Below, in pieces: positions 23,192-28,793 of a stretch of 64,000 bases of DNA. The notes beneath the pieces are model-generated. The model saw only the letters and a list, made by a program, of their open reading frames with translations, was not told the DNA's origin and made no database searches. The stretch's first letter is position 1. Each line of letters begins with the position of its first letter. The stretch comes from Amycolatopsis sp. EV170708-02-1. Lineage in GTDB: Bacteria; Actinomycetota; Actinomycetes; Mycobacteriales; Pseudonocardiaceae. Position numbers and translations under genes: made by a program. Where the stretch lies: positions 806,001 to 870,000 of the forward strand of contig NZ_CP092497.1 of the NCBI RefSeq assembly GCF_022479115.1. Reading direction: 5' to 3'.

Positions 23192-24874
23192 GTGTCAGGA
23201 GCAGTCGCCATCGACACCGGTCAGCTGATCGCTGGGCACTATCGCCTGGTCGAGCAAATTGGTAGCGGTGCCATGGGGGTGGTCTGGCGTGCCATCGATG
23301 TCCGCCTCGAGCGCTCGGTGGCGGTCAAGCAGATCCTCCCGCAGCCGGGTGTCTCCGAGGCCGAACGCGACAACATGCGCCAGCGCGCCATGCGCGAGGC
23401 GAAGAACGCGGCCCGGTTCCAGCATCCGAACGCGATCGTGGTGTTCGACATCGCCGAGCACGGCGGCGACCCCTGCCTGGTGATGGAGTACCTGAACGGC
23501 CCGAGCCTCTCGGCGATCATCTCCGATGAGGGCACGCTGCCGCTGGGGCGCGTCGCGAAGATCGGCGAGCAGGTCGCGTCGGCGCTGGTCGCCGCGCACC
23601 GCGCCGGGATCGTGCACCGCGACGTCAAACCGGGCAACATCCTGATCGACGAGGCCGGCACCGCGAAGATCACCGATTTCGGCATCTCCCGCGCGGCCGG
23701 GGACATGACGCTCACCCAGACCGGCCTGATCGGCGGCACCCCGGCGTACCTCGCGCCCGAGCTGGCGCGCGGCTCGGACCCCGTGCCCAGCTCCGACGTC
23801 TTCGCGCTCGGCGCGACGCTCTACCAGGCGATCGAAGGCCAGACGCCGTACGGGAACAGCTCGAACCAGCTGGCGCTCCTGTACGCGGCCGCGAACGGCC
23901 AGATCAACCCGCCGCAGCAGGCGGGCCCCGCGACGGCGCTGCTGATGAGCCTCCTGCGCACCGAGCCGACCGAGCGGCCCACCATGGCCGAGGCCAGGGA
24001 GCGCCTCGCCGCGCTGGCGGCGAACGAATCGGGCGCGGGCACGGCCGCGTCGCCGCGGCTTTTCGGAGCGGGCGGCGGTAGACAGCCCGCCGTGCCCGAG
24101 ACTCCCGGGCACGGCATCCCCGGCGGGGACCGCCCGCCGTGGCAGCGGACCGACAAGCCGGTCCCCTCCGCCGCGGCTCCTCCGCAACCCGCCAAGACGC
24201 ACACGCCGACGGCCGCGTTCATCCCGATGCGCTCGCCGTCCGCCCCGCCGAACACCCCGCCGCGTCCGGTCGCCGCGATGAGCCCGCCGCCGTCCGCGGC
24301 AGCTCCGATGCGGCCGTCCCCGGCCAAGCCGACCGACGCGAAGCGCAAGGCCGTCCTGTTCGCGGGCGCCGGTGCCGCGGTCGTGGTGATCGCGGTGATC
24401 GTGTTCCTGATCCTGAACTCGAGCAACGGGGGTAATACCCCGGGTGGCAACAACGCCGGGGCGAACCCGCAGCCCGGCACCTCGGCGCCGCCGAAGAGCG
24501 GCTCGTCTTCGTCGCGTCCCGCACCCGCGGGCCTGGGGAAGACCCCGAGCGAGAAGGTCACCAGCTACTCCAGCGTGGGGCAATTCCTGCTGGACTTCTT
24601 CGACACCGACAAGATCGGGACGTCCGCGAGCTGGAACAAGCTCACGGAGGCCGCGAAGGCGGTCTACGGCTCGGAGCAGGCGTTCGCCGAGTACTGGAGC
24701 ACTCACAAGGTCACTGGTGCCGAAACCGCGCGAGCGGACAGCGGTGGCGGAAACCCCGACGGCTCGATCGACATGAACATCACGCTCAACAAGGGACCGC
24801 GGCCGGCGCTGCGCGTGGTCCAGGTCGGCGGGCAGTACTACATCGACGCCGACACGCGAGTACTCGGCAACTGA
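23192..24874 (+). CDS. Membrane Ser/Thr protein kinase (PASTA-less)
   Basis: A 560-residue Hanks-type kinase. The kinase domain spans about residues 14-275 with glycine loop QIGSGAMGVVW, VAVKQIL lysine, HRDVKPGN catalytic loop and DFGISR. A Pro/Ala-rich linker (about 285-380) leads to one transmembrane helix (about 383-407) and a C-terminal outside domain of about 120 residues (SYSSVGQFLLDFFDTDKIGT ... GGQYYIDADT) of unknown type that may sense a ligand. GTG start with CCGGAG upstream. Confidence 0.92.
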   Translation: MSGAVAIDTGQLIAGHYRLVEQIGSGAMGVVWRAIDVRLERSVAVKQILPQPGVSEAERDNMRQRAMREAKNAARFQHPNAIVVFDIAEHGGDPCLVMEYLNGPSLSAIISDEGTLPLGRVAKIGEQVASALVAAHRAGIVHRDVKPGNILIDEAGTAKITDFGISRAAGDMTLTQTGLIGGTPAYLAPELARGSDPVPSSDVFALGATLYQAIEGQTPYGNSSNQLALLYAAANGQINPPQQAGPATALLMSLLRTEPTERPTMAEARERLAALAANESGAGTAASPRLFGAGGGRQPAVPETPGHGIPGGDRPPWQRTDKPVPSAAAPPQPAKTHTPTAAFIPMRSPSAPPNTPPRPVAAMSPPPSAAAPMRPSPAKPTDAKRKAVLFAGAGAAVVVIAVIVFLILNSSNGGNTPGGNNAGANPQPGTSAPPKSGSSSSRPAPAGLGKTPSEKVTSYSSVGQFLLDFFDTDKIGTSASWNKLTEAAKAVYGSEQAFAEYWSTHKVTGAETARADSGGGNPDGSIDMNITLNKGPRPALRVVQVGGQYYIDADTRVLGN

Positions 24875-24946
24875 CGCAGAGTGGCGGTGGTGAGACCCGC
24901 CTCGCTGGTGGTAGGCCAATCGACGATCGTGGCTTACTGTTGCTCC

Positions 24947-25252
24947 ATGGCCGATAGCGGACCTTTCGGGCCTGGCCAGCACCCTCGTTTCGACGAGGAT
25001 CTGGTAGGCCTCGACCCGGACGATCCCGAAGCCCGGGCCTTCGCCGAGCATCTGGACCGCATCGAACGCTGCGGCCCGAACTTCACCGTGGAGGCCTGCC
25101 TCGACGGTGTCTCCGATTTCGCCGACTCCAGCAACCGTCTCGGCGGCCTGCGCTGGTGGGTTTCGGCACTCGTCGTGGTCCTCATCGTGCTCGGCGTGAT
25201 GGTCACCGCATGGGACATCATCGGCCGGGCCATCGCGTGGCTCGCGGGGTAA
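24947..25252 (+). CDS. Small membrane protein of unknown function
   Basis: A 101-residue protein: an acidic soluble N-terminal part (FDEDLVGLDPDDPEARAFAE) and one C-terminal transmembrane helix (about residues 70-92). Not recognised as a named family. It lies between the kinase gene and msrB, all on the plus strand, and may be co-expressed. The ATG at MADSGPFGPGQ fits better than upstream starts. Confidence 0.65.
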   Translation: MADSGPFGPGQHPRFDEDLVGLDPDDPEARAFAEHLDRIERCGPNFTVEACLDGVSDFADSSNRLGGLRWWVSALVVVLIVLGVMVTAWDIIGRAIAWLAG

Positions 25253-25271
25253 CGTGGAACCGGTGAAAGGC

Positions 25272-25694
25272 ATGAAACCCGTTGTCGGAGCCACGCCGCG
25301 CGTGGTCAAGTCCGAGCAGGAATGGCGGGAGCAGCTCAGCCCCGACGAGTACGCCGTCCTTCGCCAGGCGGGCACCGAGCGCCCCTTCACCGGTGAGTAC
25401 ACCGATGAGAAGACCACCGGGGTCTACCAGTGCCGGGCCTGTGGCGCCGAACTGTTCCGCAGCGACACGAAATTCGAGAGCCACTGCGGCTGGCCGTCGT
25501 TCTACGACCCGGCCGACACCGACGCCGTCCTCCTCCGCGAGGACACCACCATGGGGATGCGCCGGATCGAGGTGCTGTGCAAGTCGTGCCACAGCCACCT
25601 CGGGCACGTCTTCGAAGGCGAGGGCTACGCCACGCCGACGGATCAGCGGTACTGCATCAACTCGATCTCGCTGAAGCTCGTTCCCGAGTCGTAA
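25272..25694 (+). CDS. msrB: Peptide-methionine (R)-S-oxide reductase
   Basis: A 140-residue MsrB. Two CxxC pairs for zinc are visible (CRAC near residue 55, CKSCH near 103). The catalytic cysteine is in RYCINSISL near the C-terminus, and the CGWPSFYDP motif is present. It reduces methionine R-sulfoxide in the cytoplasm. The ATG at MKPVVGATP with GTGAAAGG upstream is chosen; GTG codons at 25254 and 25263 are alternatives. Confidence 0.93.
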   Translation: MKPVVGATPRVVKSEQEWREQLSPDEYAVLRQAGTERPFTGEYTDEKTTGVYQCRACGAELFRSDTKFESHCGWPSFYDPADTDAVLLREDTTMGMRRIEVLCKSCHSHLGHVFEGEGYATPTDQRYCINSISLKLVPES

Positions 25695-25771: not shown

Positions 25772-26611
25772 ATGAACGAACCCTGGGGAATCTCCGGACC
25801 GGCTTTCGCGTGGCTGTACGGAGTCTGTGCCGTGCTGCCGTTTCTCGTCGCCGGCTTGTGGACACATTCGCTCCGGCGCCGTGCCGCCGACGAGCGGACG
25901 CCGCCGAGCCCATATCACCTCGCCGCTCTGGCCGGTGGCACCGAGCGGGTCGCCGATGTCGCGGTGGCCACCATGGTCGCCGGTGAACAGATACGGCTGG
26001 ACAGCCGAGGGCGGGTCACCGTCCTCCGAGCCGCATCAGGAGACCCGCTCACACGCGCCGCCGCCGAACTCGTCCCGCGGGCGGGCGACGGTGGACTCTA
26101 CCGGTTGAAGAAGCTGCTGAGCCGGAGCGCGGCCGTCCAGGAAGTGCGCAACGATCTTCAGCTGAGCGGCCTGCAAGTGGATGAACGTCGCCGTCGCACC
26201 GGGTGGCTGGTGGCCTTGATCGTCTACCTCCCCGTGCTCGCGCTCGGGCTGGCGAGGCTCGCCAACGCCATCCCGCTGGGTCGCCCGGTCGGGGTGCTGA
26301 CGGGTCTCCTCCTCGCAGTGGTCGCGGCCATCGCCGGGACCGCCCTTCTCCAACGGCCGAGCCGCACCGTCCTGCCGACCTTGGCCGGGCTGGGCGTCAT
26401 CGGCGCGGCCCGGCGGAACCCGCTTCTGGTCCCTGGAGTGGCGGGCGCGGTGGCGCTCGGCGGGTTGGCGGCGTATCCCGATCCGGTGATGGCGGACGTG
26501 CTGGTCAGGACCGGCGACGCCACCGCCAAGGGATCGGCGGGTTCGTCGGGCAGTGGAAGCGGCTGTGCGAACGGTTCGTCCTGCGGTGGCGGAGGCGGTT
26601 GTGGCGGCTGA
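25772..26611 (+). CDS. TIGR04222 membrane protein with Cys/Gly-rich tail, copy 1
   Basis: A 279-residue protein beginning MNEPWGISGPAFAWLYGVCA (first transmembrane helix), then a soluble part (YHLAALAGGTERVADVAVAT ... GDGGLYRLKKLLSRS) and three further hydrophobic segments (about residues 145-235). The last about 25 residues are Gly/Ser-rich with three cysteines: GCANGSSCGGGGGCGG. N-terminus, 'YLAGG/ALAGG' motif and tail match TIGR04222. It is the first gene of a probable four-gene cassette with an MNIO enzyme; the tail is the likely modified region. GGGAGG precedes the ATG. Confidence 0.82.
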   Translation: MNEPWGISGPAFAWLYGVCAVLPFLVAGLWTHSLRRRAADERTPPSPYHLAALAGGTERVADVAVATMVAGEQIRLDSRGRVTVLRAASGDPLTRAAAELVPRAGDGGLYRLKKLLSRSAAVQEVRNDLQLSGLQVDERRRRTGWLVALIVYLPVLALGLARLANAIPLGRPVGVLTGLLLAVVAAIAGTALLQRPSRTVLPTLAGLGVIGAARRNPLLVPGVAGAVALGGLAAYPDPVMADVLVRTGDATAKGSAGSSGSGSGCANGSSCGGGGGCGG

Positions 26612-26724
26612 CGGCCCAACTGCCGTCGCCGGACACCGCACCGGATGCTCGAATCACGGAACCACCACCGGACGGAAAAGCGTCCGACTACGGTAAGTGC
26701 ACCTGCTCGTGAAAGGCCCGTGCG

Positions 26725-27648
26725 ATGGAAGACACCTGGGGCATCCCCGGACCTACTTTCCTGGCGATCTATGGCGCCCTGATCGTGTTCCCGGTGGTCG
26801 CCGGTTTCGTGTGGACGATCGCGGCCAAACTGGGCAACAGAGGGCCACGCGCCGAAGTGAGCGGCCCGCAGCCGACCGTGTACGAGTTCGCCTATCTCGC
26901 CGGCGGCCCGGACCGGGTGGTCGACACGGCCATCGCGACGCTGGTCGACCGCGGGACCTTGCGGGTCAGCAGTTCGAAGCAGCTCCAGCTGACGGGCCCC
27001 GAGCCCGCCGACCCGATCGAGAAGGCCGTCGCCAAGGGCGCGCGGCCGGGCCACAACGCCACGACCCGCGGCATTCGCGACCGGTTGCGGCTGTCGGGTC
27101 CGATGCAGGCGCTCGCCAAGGGGCTGGAGACGCGAGGGCTGGTCGTCGTCGATCAGACGCCGCGGATCCGCCGGGTCGTGTACTTCCTGTACCTCGCCGT
27201 CCTGATCCTCGGCGTGGCGCGCCTGATCGCCGGGATCGCCGGGGACCGCCCGGTCGGATACCTGATCCCGCTGCTGATCTCGGCCGTGTTCGCGACGGTG
27301 ATCGCCCGTGCGCTCAAGAACAAGCGGCCGGGCCCGCGTCCGACCAGCGAGGGCGCCCGGGTCCTCCACAAGGCCAGGTCCGCGCACGGGCGGGAGCGCA
27401 AACGCGGCATCCCGAACGGACCGGGGTACGCCGGCGGCGCGGTGCTGGGCGGCGCCGCCGCGGCGGTCGCGTTCGGCGGTCTCGCCTCGTACCCCGACGA
27501 GGAGCTGAGCGCGGCCCTGATCCCGCCGCCGGTCTCCAGCGGGTTCGGCGGCGGTTCGTCCGGCGGCGGCTCTTCGTGCAGCAGTGGCGGAAGCTCGTGC
27601 AGCAGCGGCGGCAGCTCCTGCGGTGGAGGCGGCGGTTGTGGCGGCTGA
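26725..27648 (+). CDS. TIGR04222 membrane protein with Cys/Gly-rich tail, copy 2
   Basis: A 307-residue paralogue of the preceding protein: MEDTWGIPGPTFLAIYGALI, YEFAYLAGGPDRVVDTAIAT near residue 52, hydrophobic segments near 152-172, 180-196 and 236-260. The tail has four cysteines, three of them spaced seven residues apart within GGSSCSS units, ending SSCGGGGGCGG. Such tails are proposed substrates of DUF692/MNIO enzymes. The MNIO gene starts inside the tail codons (11-base overlap), which gives strict co-translation of enzyme and candidate substrate. Confidence 0.87.
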   Translation: MEDTWGIPGPTFLAIYGALIVFPVVAGFVWTIAAKLGNRGPRAEVSGPQPTVYEFAYLAGGPDRVVDTAIATLVDRGTLRVSSSKQLQLTGPEPADPIEKAVAKGARPGHNATTRGIRDRLRLSGPMQALAKGLETRGLVVVDQTPRIRRVVYFLYLAVLILGVARLIAGIAGDRPVGYLIPLLISAVFATVIARALKNKRPGPRPTSEGARVLHKARSAHGRERKRGIPNGPGYAGGAVLGGAAAAVAFGGLASYPDEELSAALIPPPVSSGFGGGSSGGGSSCSSGGSSCSSGGSSCGGGGGCGG

Positions 27649-28453
27649 CGGGCCCGGCAGGCTCGGGATCGGCATCGGCTGGCGGCACGAGCTCGACCTT
27701 TCGATCGCGCGGCTGCCGGGCGTCGACTGGGTCGAGGTCGTCGCCGAGAACCTGCACGCCGGGCATCTTCCGGAGACCTTGGTCGCGTTGCGCGACAAGG
27801 GAATGCCGGTCCTGCCGCACGCCGTCTCGCTGTCGCTGGGCGGGGCCGAACCGCTGGACACCGCGCGCGTCGAGCATCTCGCGGTCCTCACCCGCGAGCT
27901 CGGCGCTCCGCTGGCCAGCGACCACGTGTGCTTCGTGCGCGCGGGCGGCCTCGACTCGGGTCATCTGATGCCGCTCCCCCGCACCCGGGAGGCGCTGGAC
28001 GTCCTGGTGGACAACGTCAACCTGACGCAGTCCATCGTGGAGGTCCCGTTCGCGCTGGAGAACATCGCGGCCGTGCTGGAATGGCCGGACGCGGAGTTCA
28101 CCGAGTCGGAGTTCCTGCGGGAGCTCACCGAGCGGACCGGCTGCCTGCTGATCGTCGACGTCGCCAATCTGTACGCCAACGCCCGCAACCTCGGCACCGA
28201 TCCCGAGCGGTTCCTCGACGAGATCCCGTGGGAGCGCCTGGCGTACACCCATATGGCGGGCGGTGTCGAACGCGACGGCGTCTATCACGACACGCACGCC
28301 CATCCGGTGGTGCCGGAGGTCCTGGAGCTGCTGCGCGAACTGCGGCGCCGCACCGAACCGCCCGGCGTCCTGCTGGAACGCGACGACGACTACCCGTCCG
28401 ACACGGAACTGGCGGCCGAGCTGGCCGCGCTGCGGGAAGCGGTCTCGCCGTGA
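27638..28453 (+). CDS. DUF692 / MNIO-family non-haem iron oxidase
   Basis: A 271-residue TIM-barrel protein of the DUF692 (multinuclear non-haem iron-dependent oxidase) family. Metal-ligand-type motifs in order: GWRHELDLS, VVAENLHAGH, LPHAVSLSLGG, LASDHVCF, FALENIAA, LIVDVANLYANA, and the closing YTHMAGG with HDTHAHP. Known members (MbnB, TglH, ChrH, bufferin MNIOs) modify peptide cysteines and need a small partner protein. The GTG start lies in the Gly codons of the upstream gene, with GGAGG about 10 bases before. Next gene overlaps by GTGA. Substrate assignment to the TIGR04222 tails is inference. Confidence 0.9.
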   Translation: MAADGPGRLGIGIGWRHELDLSIARLPGVDWVEVVAENLHAGHLPETLVALRDKGMPVLPHAVSLSLGGAEPLDTARVEHLAVLTRELGAPLASDHVCFVRAGGLDSGHLMPLPRTREALDVLVDNVNLTQSIVEVPFALENIAAVLEWPDAEFTESEFLRELTERTGCLLIVDVANLYANARNLGTDPERFLDEIPWERLAYTHMAGGVERDGVYHDTHAHPVVPEVLELLRELRRRTEPPGVLLERDDDYPSDTELAAELAALREAVSP

Positions 28454-28793
28454 CGTCGCCCCGGGAGCGGCTCGCCGGGCAGCAGGCGGAGCTGCTCAAG
28501 GCGCTTCTCGCCGGAGGCGAGGCTCCGGCGGGCTTCGACGCGGACAGGCTCCGCATCGAGGCGAACGTCTTGCGGAACAAGCAAAGCAGGCTGGCCGCCT
28601 ACCTCCGCCCGGATCTCGCCGAGGCCCTCGGCGACCGGTTCGCCGCCCTCTTCCGCGAGTACGCGGTCGCCCACCCGAAGACCGACGCGATCCGCGCGCG
28701 TGCCTACGCGGATGCTTTCGGCACGTGGCTCGTGGAGCGCGGCGAGGTCCCGAAGCCCCGGGCCGGCTCGCGAGCTGGCTACGCCGCATTTAG
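28450..28793 (+). CDS. Putative MNIO partner protein (apparent 1-base frameshift)
   Basis: Starts with GTG in a GTGA overlap with the MNIO gene. The first 102 codons encode a helical protein: LLKALLAGGEAPAGFDADRL, RIEANVLRNKQSRLAAYLRP, DRFAALFREYAVAHPKTDA. The 'R..RNK..RL..YLRP..AEALGDRFA' pattern resembles DUF2063-type partners of MNIOs. After base 28755 the frame runs on for about 200 codons antisense to the CoA-transferase gene, which is implausible. Adding one C to the run at 28756-28759 gives PPGRLASWLRRI and a TAG at 28791 inside the family A hairpin, a natural end (114 aa). I take that as the real gene. Confidence 0.7.

Follow-up and report, generated by a model that had tools for sequence, protein, structure and literature searches.

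A four-gene MNIO cassette of Amycolatopsis with the cysteine-studded tails of TIGR04222 proteins as its probable target

What does an MNIO (DUF692) enzyme modify when its gene lies beside genes for cysteine-tailed membrane proteins? Small exported peptides are the substrates for which MNIO enzymes are known. In the 64,000 bp stretch of the Amycolatopsis sp. EV170708-02-1 genome analysed here (the window; NZ_CP092497.1, 806,001 bp–870,000 bp of the forward strand), the gene for a predicted iron-dependent, peptide-modifying MNIO follows two genes for TIGR04222 proteins, TIGR04222-a and TIGR04222-b, whose C-terminal tails are rich in glycine, serine and cysteine, and precedes a gene for a small partner protein (Table 1). 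Four such plus-strand genes had been predicted from the sequence, and profile matches and translations confirmed them; the curated family matches, together with the same neighbours in 104 loci including the window, establish beyond chance that the genes are real and conserved. These 104 linked loci, in which MNIO and TIGR04222 lie within 4 kb of each other, came from stretches fetched around TIGR04222 or MNIO matches and are a non-random sample. The original prediction had hung on this adjacency being conserved in related genomes, as it proved to be. Our explanation of the locus, to which we give a probability of about 0.6, is that it encodes a cytosolic protein-modification unit acting on the TIGR04222 tails.

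The tail cysteines covary with possession of an MNIO gene and this, with the conserved adjacency, makes the tail the probable target of the enzyme. Tails with at least two [GS]C[GS] motifs were classed as Cys-studded. Among the 153 genomes with tails read, all samples taken together, Cys-studded tails were present in 105 of the 115 with MNIO and in 4 of the 38 without; the class sample contributed 39/42 against 2/32, and the family, phylum and genus samples combined 66/73 against 2/6. When class genomes with Gly/Ser-rich tails were compared, the fractions were 38/39 with MNIO and 2/13 without, and 11 of these 13 MNIO-less genomes kept a Gly/Ser-rich tail without such Cys motifs (for example ...GGGDSGGGGGDGGGGGGGD). 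The class search found TIGR04222 in 117 of 394 genomes, 102 of them new; 80 of these were tested for MNIO, which 47 had and 33 lacked. Of the 80, 74 had their tails read; the six others are G511, which has no MNIO, and G574, G627, G696, G751 and G791, which have one. The Cys counts are based on the copies read, which were not every TIGR04222 copy of each genome. Among the four MNIO-less genomes with Cys-studded tails, the sequence of G526 breaks off 143 bases past the gene, the motifs of G593 come after a stretch of unknown bases, and the assemblies of G445 and G452 consist of 480 and 370 contigs, respectively. The 10 MNIO-bearing genomes without such tails are G013, six genomes of the genus coded g8, G643, G542 and G573; the MNIO of G643 is unlinked and has a much higher family score, and a second TIGR04222 copy of G542 was left unread.

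At least one Cys-tailed TIGR04222 was encoded in 96 of the 104 linked loci. Loci distant from MNIO in MNIO-bearing genomes had a Cys tail in 16 of 20 cases, and four class genomes with MNIO elsewhere (G536, G582, G635 and G659) retained Cys tails. Because TIGR04222 paralogues far from MNIO keep these tails, modification in trans is suggested. In a simple linkage test, the median number of tail Cys was 4 for TIGR04222 both near to and far from MNIO, because the distant copies themselves belong to genomes with an MNIO; genomes were then labelled by whether they hold an MNIO at all. Across 165 Cys-tailed open reading frames (ORFs), the residue before Cys was Gly 369 times and Ser 348 times and the residue after it Gly 590 times and Ser 136 times; the commonest Cys spacing was 6 and 83 tails ended in CGG.

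TIGR04222 and MNIO also occur in the same genomes, a check across actinobacteria that the original prediction had proposed. In the genus (60 genomes), 54 had both, one (G021) TIGR04222 only, one (G023) MNIO only and four neither (Fisher p 5e-5); the G023 contig breaks off within a TIGR04222 that has a Cys tail (L126). The window's family (130 genomes) gave 68, 4, 1 and 57 in the same order (p 8e-31), such that 68 of the 73 genomes with either held both, and the phylum (296 genomes) gave 14, 1, 5 and 276 (p 5e-19). The genus, family and phylum sets share a few genomes, and these tests ignore phylogeny.

The pairing of TIGR04222 with MNIO is not new, because Antoine et al. (2025; PMC12452194) had described TIGR04222 proteins with Cys-bearing Ser/Gly tails, in silico, as putative MNIO substrates. 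The earlier claim that the Cys tail is the substrate thus stands as the naming of a likely target and falls as a new proposal. The window agrees with the published definition of these clusters, a Cys-containing Ser/Gly-rich C-terminus adjoining an MNIO gene. According to the available portion of that article, the clusters are mostly from Actinomycetota, the tail lies in the periplasm, at least 10% of clusters have a PME-type 2 partner and many seem to have none, over a quarter of the TIGR04222 proteins have no C-proximal Cys, and 490 of 1372 TIGR04222 genomes lack MNIO. Our analysis differs in that the partner was present in 103 of the 104 linked loci and a cytosolic tail is favoured; also new, relative to that portion of the article, are the cross-tabulation of tail Cys with MNIO and the form without transmembrane (TM) segments described below, and the evidence for the tail as target is now stronger. 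A text search of the available literature for TIGR04222 with MNIO returned no other paper, and a pattern search for further papers returned nothing relevant.

The closest NCBIfam model to the window's MNIO was MNIO_BufB, at 203 bits against a cut-off of 310 for the bufferin maturase BufB (NF050167). The His/Asp/Glu/Asn metal motifs of the window's enzyme, claimed from the sequence to be complete, were upheld by alignment of the motif regions with the solved DUF692 proteins 3bww, 8hci and MbnB (7tcr); we take the motif residues to be iron binders. The bufferin system BufA/BufB/BufC likewise has a Cys-targeting MNIO with a partner gene 3′ of it. Unlike that system, the cassette has no small Sec-signal precursor, its partner lacks the RRE half and its putative substrate is the tail of a folded protein. 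TglHI and MbnBC also combine an MNIO with a small partner acting on precursor Cys, but they use small precursor peptides, and the MNIO sequence here is only distantly similar to theirs. In one other genome (G401:C1:396224-396998), an MNIO match in three pieces lies next to a TIGR04222 gene.

The partner was found as 86 separate genes 3′ of MNIO (median 110 residues from the domain start) and as 17 clear fusions to MNIO with linkers of 29–144 residues (L104–L106, L108, L110, L113, L115, L116, L211, L213; L184, L185, L190, L192, L193, L196, L198); the remaining locus, L182, has one ORF that matches both the MNIO and partner models with no clear partner position. Seen in two families, coded f5 and f80, the fusions support a physical complex of enzyme and partner. 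The window's partner matched PF09836 (DUF2063) at E 0.0019–0.0029 (18.3–18.9 bits, below the cut-off of 27.2 bits), and 5 of 15 relatives matched it at E up to 1; the partner profile had no match up to E 1 among solved structures. Lying directly 3′ of MNIO, with a DUF2063-like helical domain that has no Pfam-level signature, the partner corresponds to the description of PME-type 2; the sub-cut-off DUF2063 match and the lack of an RRE-sized second domain set it apart from PME-type 1 (DUF2063 plus RRE). Its kinship with TglI/NGO1945 is taken from the available portion of Antoine et al. (2025).

The helical core of the window's partner (to ~28755) is intact. Beyond it, at 28755–28760, there is one base fewer than in all six relatives compared, and the shifted frame stays open to 29376, crossing the end of the convergent CaiB-type gene. 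The stop at 28793, which had been given as the end of the partner, belongs to a neighbouring frame. Whether the one-base difference is a sequencing error or a real change we cannot tell. At another locus (L168, genome G503), the Cys tail passes straight into partner-like residues and there is only a partial MNIO match elsewhere in the genome; this looks like a decayed cassette.

TIGR04222-a ends in ...GCANGSSCGGGGGCGG and TIGR04222-b in ...SSCSSGGSSCSSGGSSCGGGGGCGG, each followed by the stop. As predicted, MNIO starts inside the Cys-tail codons of the second membrane protein: from its second base on, the last Cys codon of TIGR04222-b is also part of the MNIO GTG, and the two genes share 11 bases, the TIGR04222-b stop among them. 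The predicted overlap of partner and MNIO was likewise seen, the partner GTG at 28450 overlapping the MNIO stop as GTGA. A GGAGG found by eye 8 bases 5′ of the MNIO start is built from tail Gly codons and could be the ribosome-binding site of MNIO. The ends of both TIGR04222 genes, continuing beyond their stops (26579–26617 and 27616–27654), are identical at 36 of 39 bases, which may reflect a gene-end duplication or a constrained motif. The genome of the window is a single contig of 9,660,387 bases with one MNIO and, beyond TIGR04222-a and TIGR04222-b, only one weak, sub-cut-off TIGR04222 match. The closest relatives of the TIGR04222 proteins are Amycolatopsis proteins (72–90% identity in the nearest group).

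Table 1. Features of the cassette and its upstream neighbour (positions within the window)
Feature	Position	Strand	Evidence
msrB, methionine-R-sulfoxide reductase, neighbour outside the core	25254–25694	+	TIGR00357, 164 bits
TIGR04222-a, Cys-tailed membrane protein, 279 aa	25772–26611	+	NCBIfam TIGR04222.1, 104.4 bits (cut-off 43); translation
Gly/Ser/Cys tail codons of TIGR04222-a, last 26 residues	26531–26608	+	Translation; 3 Cys in last 60 residues
TIGR04222-b, Cys-tailed membrane protein, 307 aa	26725–27648	+	TIGR04222, 142.5 bits (cut-off 43); AlphaFold: 3 TM helices, disordered tail
Gly/Ser/Cys tail codons of TIGR04222-b, last 37 residues, candidate modification site	27535–27645	+	Translation; 4 Cys in last 60 residues
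GGAGG within Gly codons of TIGR04222-b tail, possible MNIO ribosome-binding site	27625–27629	+	Read by eye; inference
MNIO (DUF692) enzyme, 271 aa, GTG start	27638–28453	+	PF05114 (MbnB_TglH_ChrH), 280.3 bits (cut-off 25)
MNIO partner, DUF2063-like helical domain without RRE	28450–28761	+	PF09836 below cut-off; family across 104 loci; one-base shift at 3′ end

The side of the membrane on which the tail lies was approached through the family-alignment profile, the source of all hydropathy and charge figures given here. The membrane form consists of TM1, a charged domain, a TM2–TM3 hairpin, a positive linker, a mildly hydrophobic segment 4 and the tail, with a net charge of -1.3 before TM1, +2.1 after TM1, +5.0 in the domain and +5.1 after TM3. 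In the AlphaFold model of TIGR04222-b, residues 275–307 have pLDDT <50 save for single residues. Locus L186 encodes a 220-aa TIGR04222 with no TM or signal, identical to a Motilibacter rhizosphaerae protein, with a six-Cys tail and then MNIO and the partner in a row; because such TM-less homologues with the same tail adjoin MNIO and partner, membrane anchoring is optional. Through segment 4, 21 TM-less TIGR04222 proteins aligned with the membrane form; the soluble and membrane cores shared 157 aligned columns (hhalign probability 99.85), with TM2–TM3 as an insertion. In this alignment the putative fourth TM pairs with two short soluble helices, and AlphaFold models of both the membrane and the soluble form have two short helices there, of 8 and 7 residues. 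Three TM helices, with the N-terminus outside and the tail cytosolic, are the arrangement that these predictions favour without proving it, contrary to the published periplasmic tail. The conserved WGI.GP motif would lie on such an outside N-terminus. The membrane-anchored modified peptide of the original prediction is refined accordingly: the anchor is optional and the tail probably cytosolic.

Several observations weigh against a cytosolic tail as substrate. Segment 4 has a mean hydropathy of 1.53 (TM1–3, 1.86–2.40) and is followed by a net charge of -1.7, as would be expected of a genuine fourth TM with the tail outside; AlphaFold confidence at segment 4 is modest, and in one TM-less protein a stretch of 19 residues reaches 1.68, just above the usual cut of 1.6. 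The tail could then be modified and nevertheless end up in the periplasm or the zone of the wall, MNIO acting before insertion, in keeping with the AlphaFold2/TM reading in the available portion of Antoine et al. (2025). We consider this unlikely, given that TM-less Cys-tailed homologues adjoin MNIO and partner and that segment 4 aligns with short soluble helices. In the six g8 loci L105, L106, L108, L110, L113 and L116, a fusion of MNIO and partner lies beside a TIGR04222 that lacks a Cys tail, and 30 of the 168 TIGR04222 ORFs of linked loci have no Cys tail; modification of TIGR04222 tails is itself putative. In four of the six g8 genomes there is an unlinked, TM-less TIGR04222-like copy with one Cys in a short Gly-rich end (L107, L109, L111 and L114), and no such copy was found in the other two, G182 and G354. 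Such loci would be explained if the tail were not the substrate at all, its Cys binding metal or forming disulfides, MNIO targeting some other, unrecognised peptide and the linkage reflecting a shared stress. This is improbable in our judgement: tail Cys are lost where MNIO is absent, MNIO starts within tail codons here and in most linked loci follows by no more than tens of bases, and no other small Cys-rich gene was noticed in the cassettes viewed by eye, although no systematic search was made.

Phylogenetic concentration is a real weakness, because the gene tree offers too few supported contrasts: the control yielded 6 well-supported independent pairs, on average 0.7 concordant, 0.0 opposite and 5.2 with no difference. 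Descent from one ancestral cluster, its Cys content drifting from clade to clade, would produce few such contrasts, and the hemQ-hemY-hemE and msrB neighbours are common to some groups only. That inherited synteny is the whole explanation is nonetheless very improbable. The msrB/hemQ neighbours were limited to the window's family and g8 among 20 loci read more widely, and elsewhere the core trio was kept in loci without them; unlinked paralogues retain tail Cys; and members with neither MNIO nor a Cys tail occur in the genus (G021/L097), in another family of the order (G735/L134) and elsewhere in the window's family (G370/L091).

As a cytosolic modification unit, the MNIO and its DUF2063-like partner would oxidise those Cys of the disordered C-terminal tail that are flanked as in [Gly/Ser]-Cys-[Gly/Ser], a single MNIO serving neighbouring and distant TIGR04222 paralogues. 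The folded core (a putative tandem winged-helix, GOLPH3/GPP34-like fold) would most likely dock the enzyme, like the leader peptide/RRE in other MNIO systems. Once modified, the tail would present soft-metal or redox groups in a chain, on the cytosolic face of the membrane or, for the TM-less form, within the cytosol itself. Bufferins, whose Cys-derived thiooxazoles chelate copper (Antoine et al. 2025, available portion), suggest by analogy that the role is most likely in copper or other metal stress. More tentatively, TIGR04222 proteins might be folded cytosolic-side carriers, with a GOLPH3-like core with or without an anchor, rather than exported precursors of ribosomally synthesised and post-translationally modified peptides (RiPPs); their Gly/Ser/Cys tails might be turned in place, also in trans by one MNIO, into a poly-heterocycle chain that is an inside-facing metal/redox buffer. 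If true, this would be MNIO protein modification of a new class. In a common group of actinobacteria, folded and mostly membrane-bound proteins probably have their tails modified. What was a guess made in silico can now be put to an assay, thanks to the covariation, the partner found at almost every locus and the TM-less form: with the soluble Motilibacter cassette the chemistry should be easy to examine without handling membranes, and the cytosolic and periplasmic topologies lead to opposite predictions.

The folded core resembles GOLPH3/GPP34 weakly. The cut-off of GPP34 (PF05719) was not reached, and TIGR04222-a and TIGR04222-b had no match to it up to E 1; among relatives it matched 4 of 103 (best E 7e-4) and 3 of 21 (best E 3.4e-5). 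The GPP34 profile comparison used 19 sequences out of a set of 21, those with a match to a GPP34 reference. GOLPH3/Vps74 (GPP34) and the DUF2207 C-terminal domain are among the closest known systems to this core. Comparison of the TIGR04222-b sequence with solved structures gave nothing convincing, and the Foldseek matches of the membrane model, mostly helical ones of ferritin type, were judged to be chance.

Just upstream of the core, msrB, which the original prediction does not mention, was present in 42 of the 104 loci read, none of them outside the window's family. In the 20 wider loci it lay upstream in 7, and hemQ lay downstream in the opposite orientation in 8. Given these counts, msrB and hemQ were treated as local synteny and not as functional partners; cassette-free members of the genus keep msrB. 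Convergent to the cassette, on the minus strand between 28810 and 33335, are genes for a CaiB/CoA-transferase, HemQ, protoporphyrinogen oxidase and HemE. On the plus strand upstream of msrB are a Ser/Thr kinase gene (23192–24874) and a small unnamed gene (24881–25252), the kinase being found in 2 and the small gene in 6 of the 20 wider loci.

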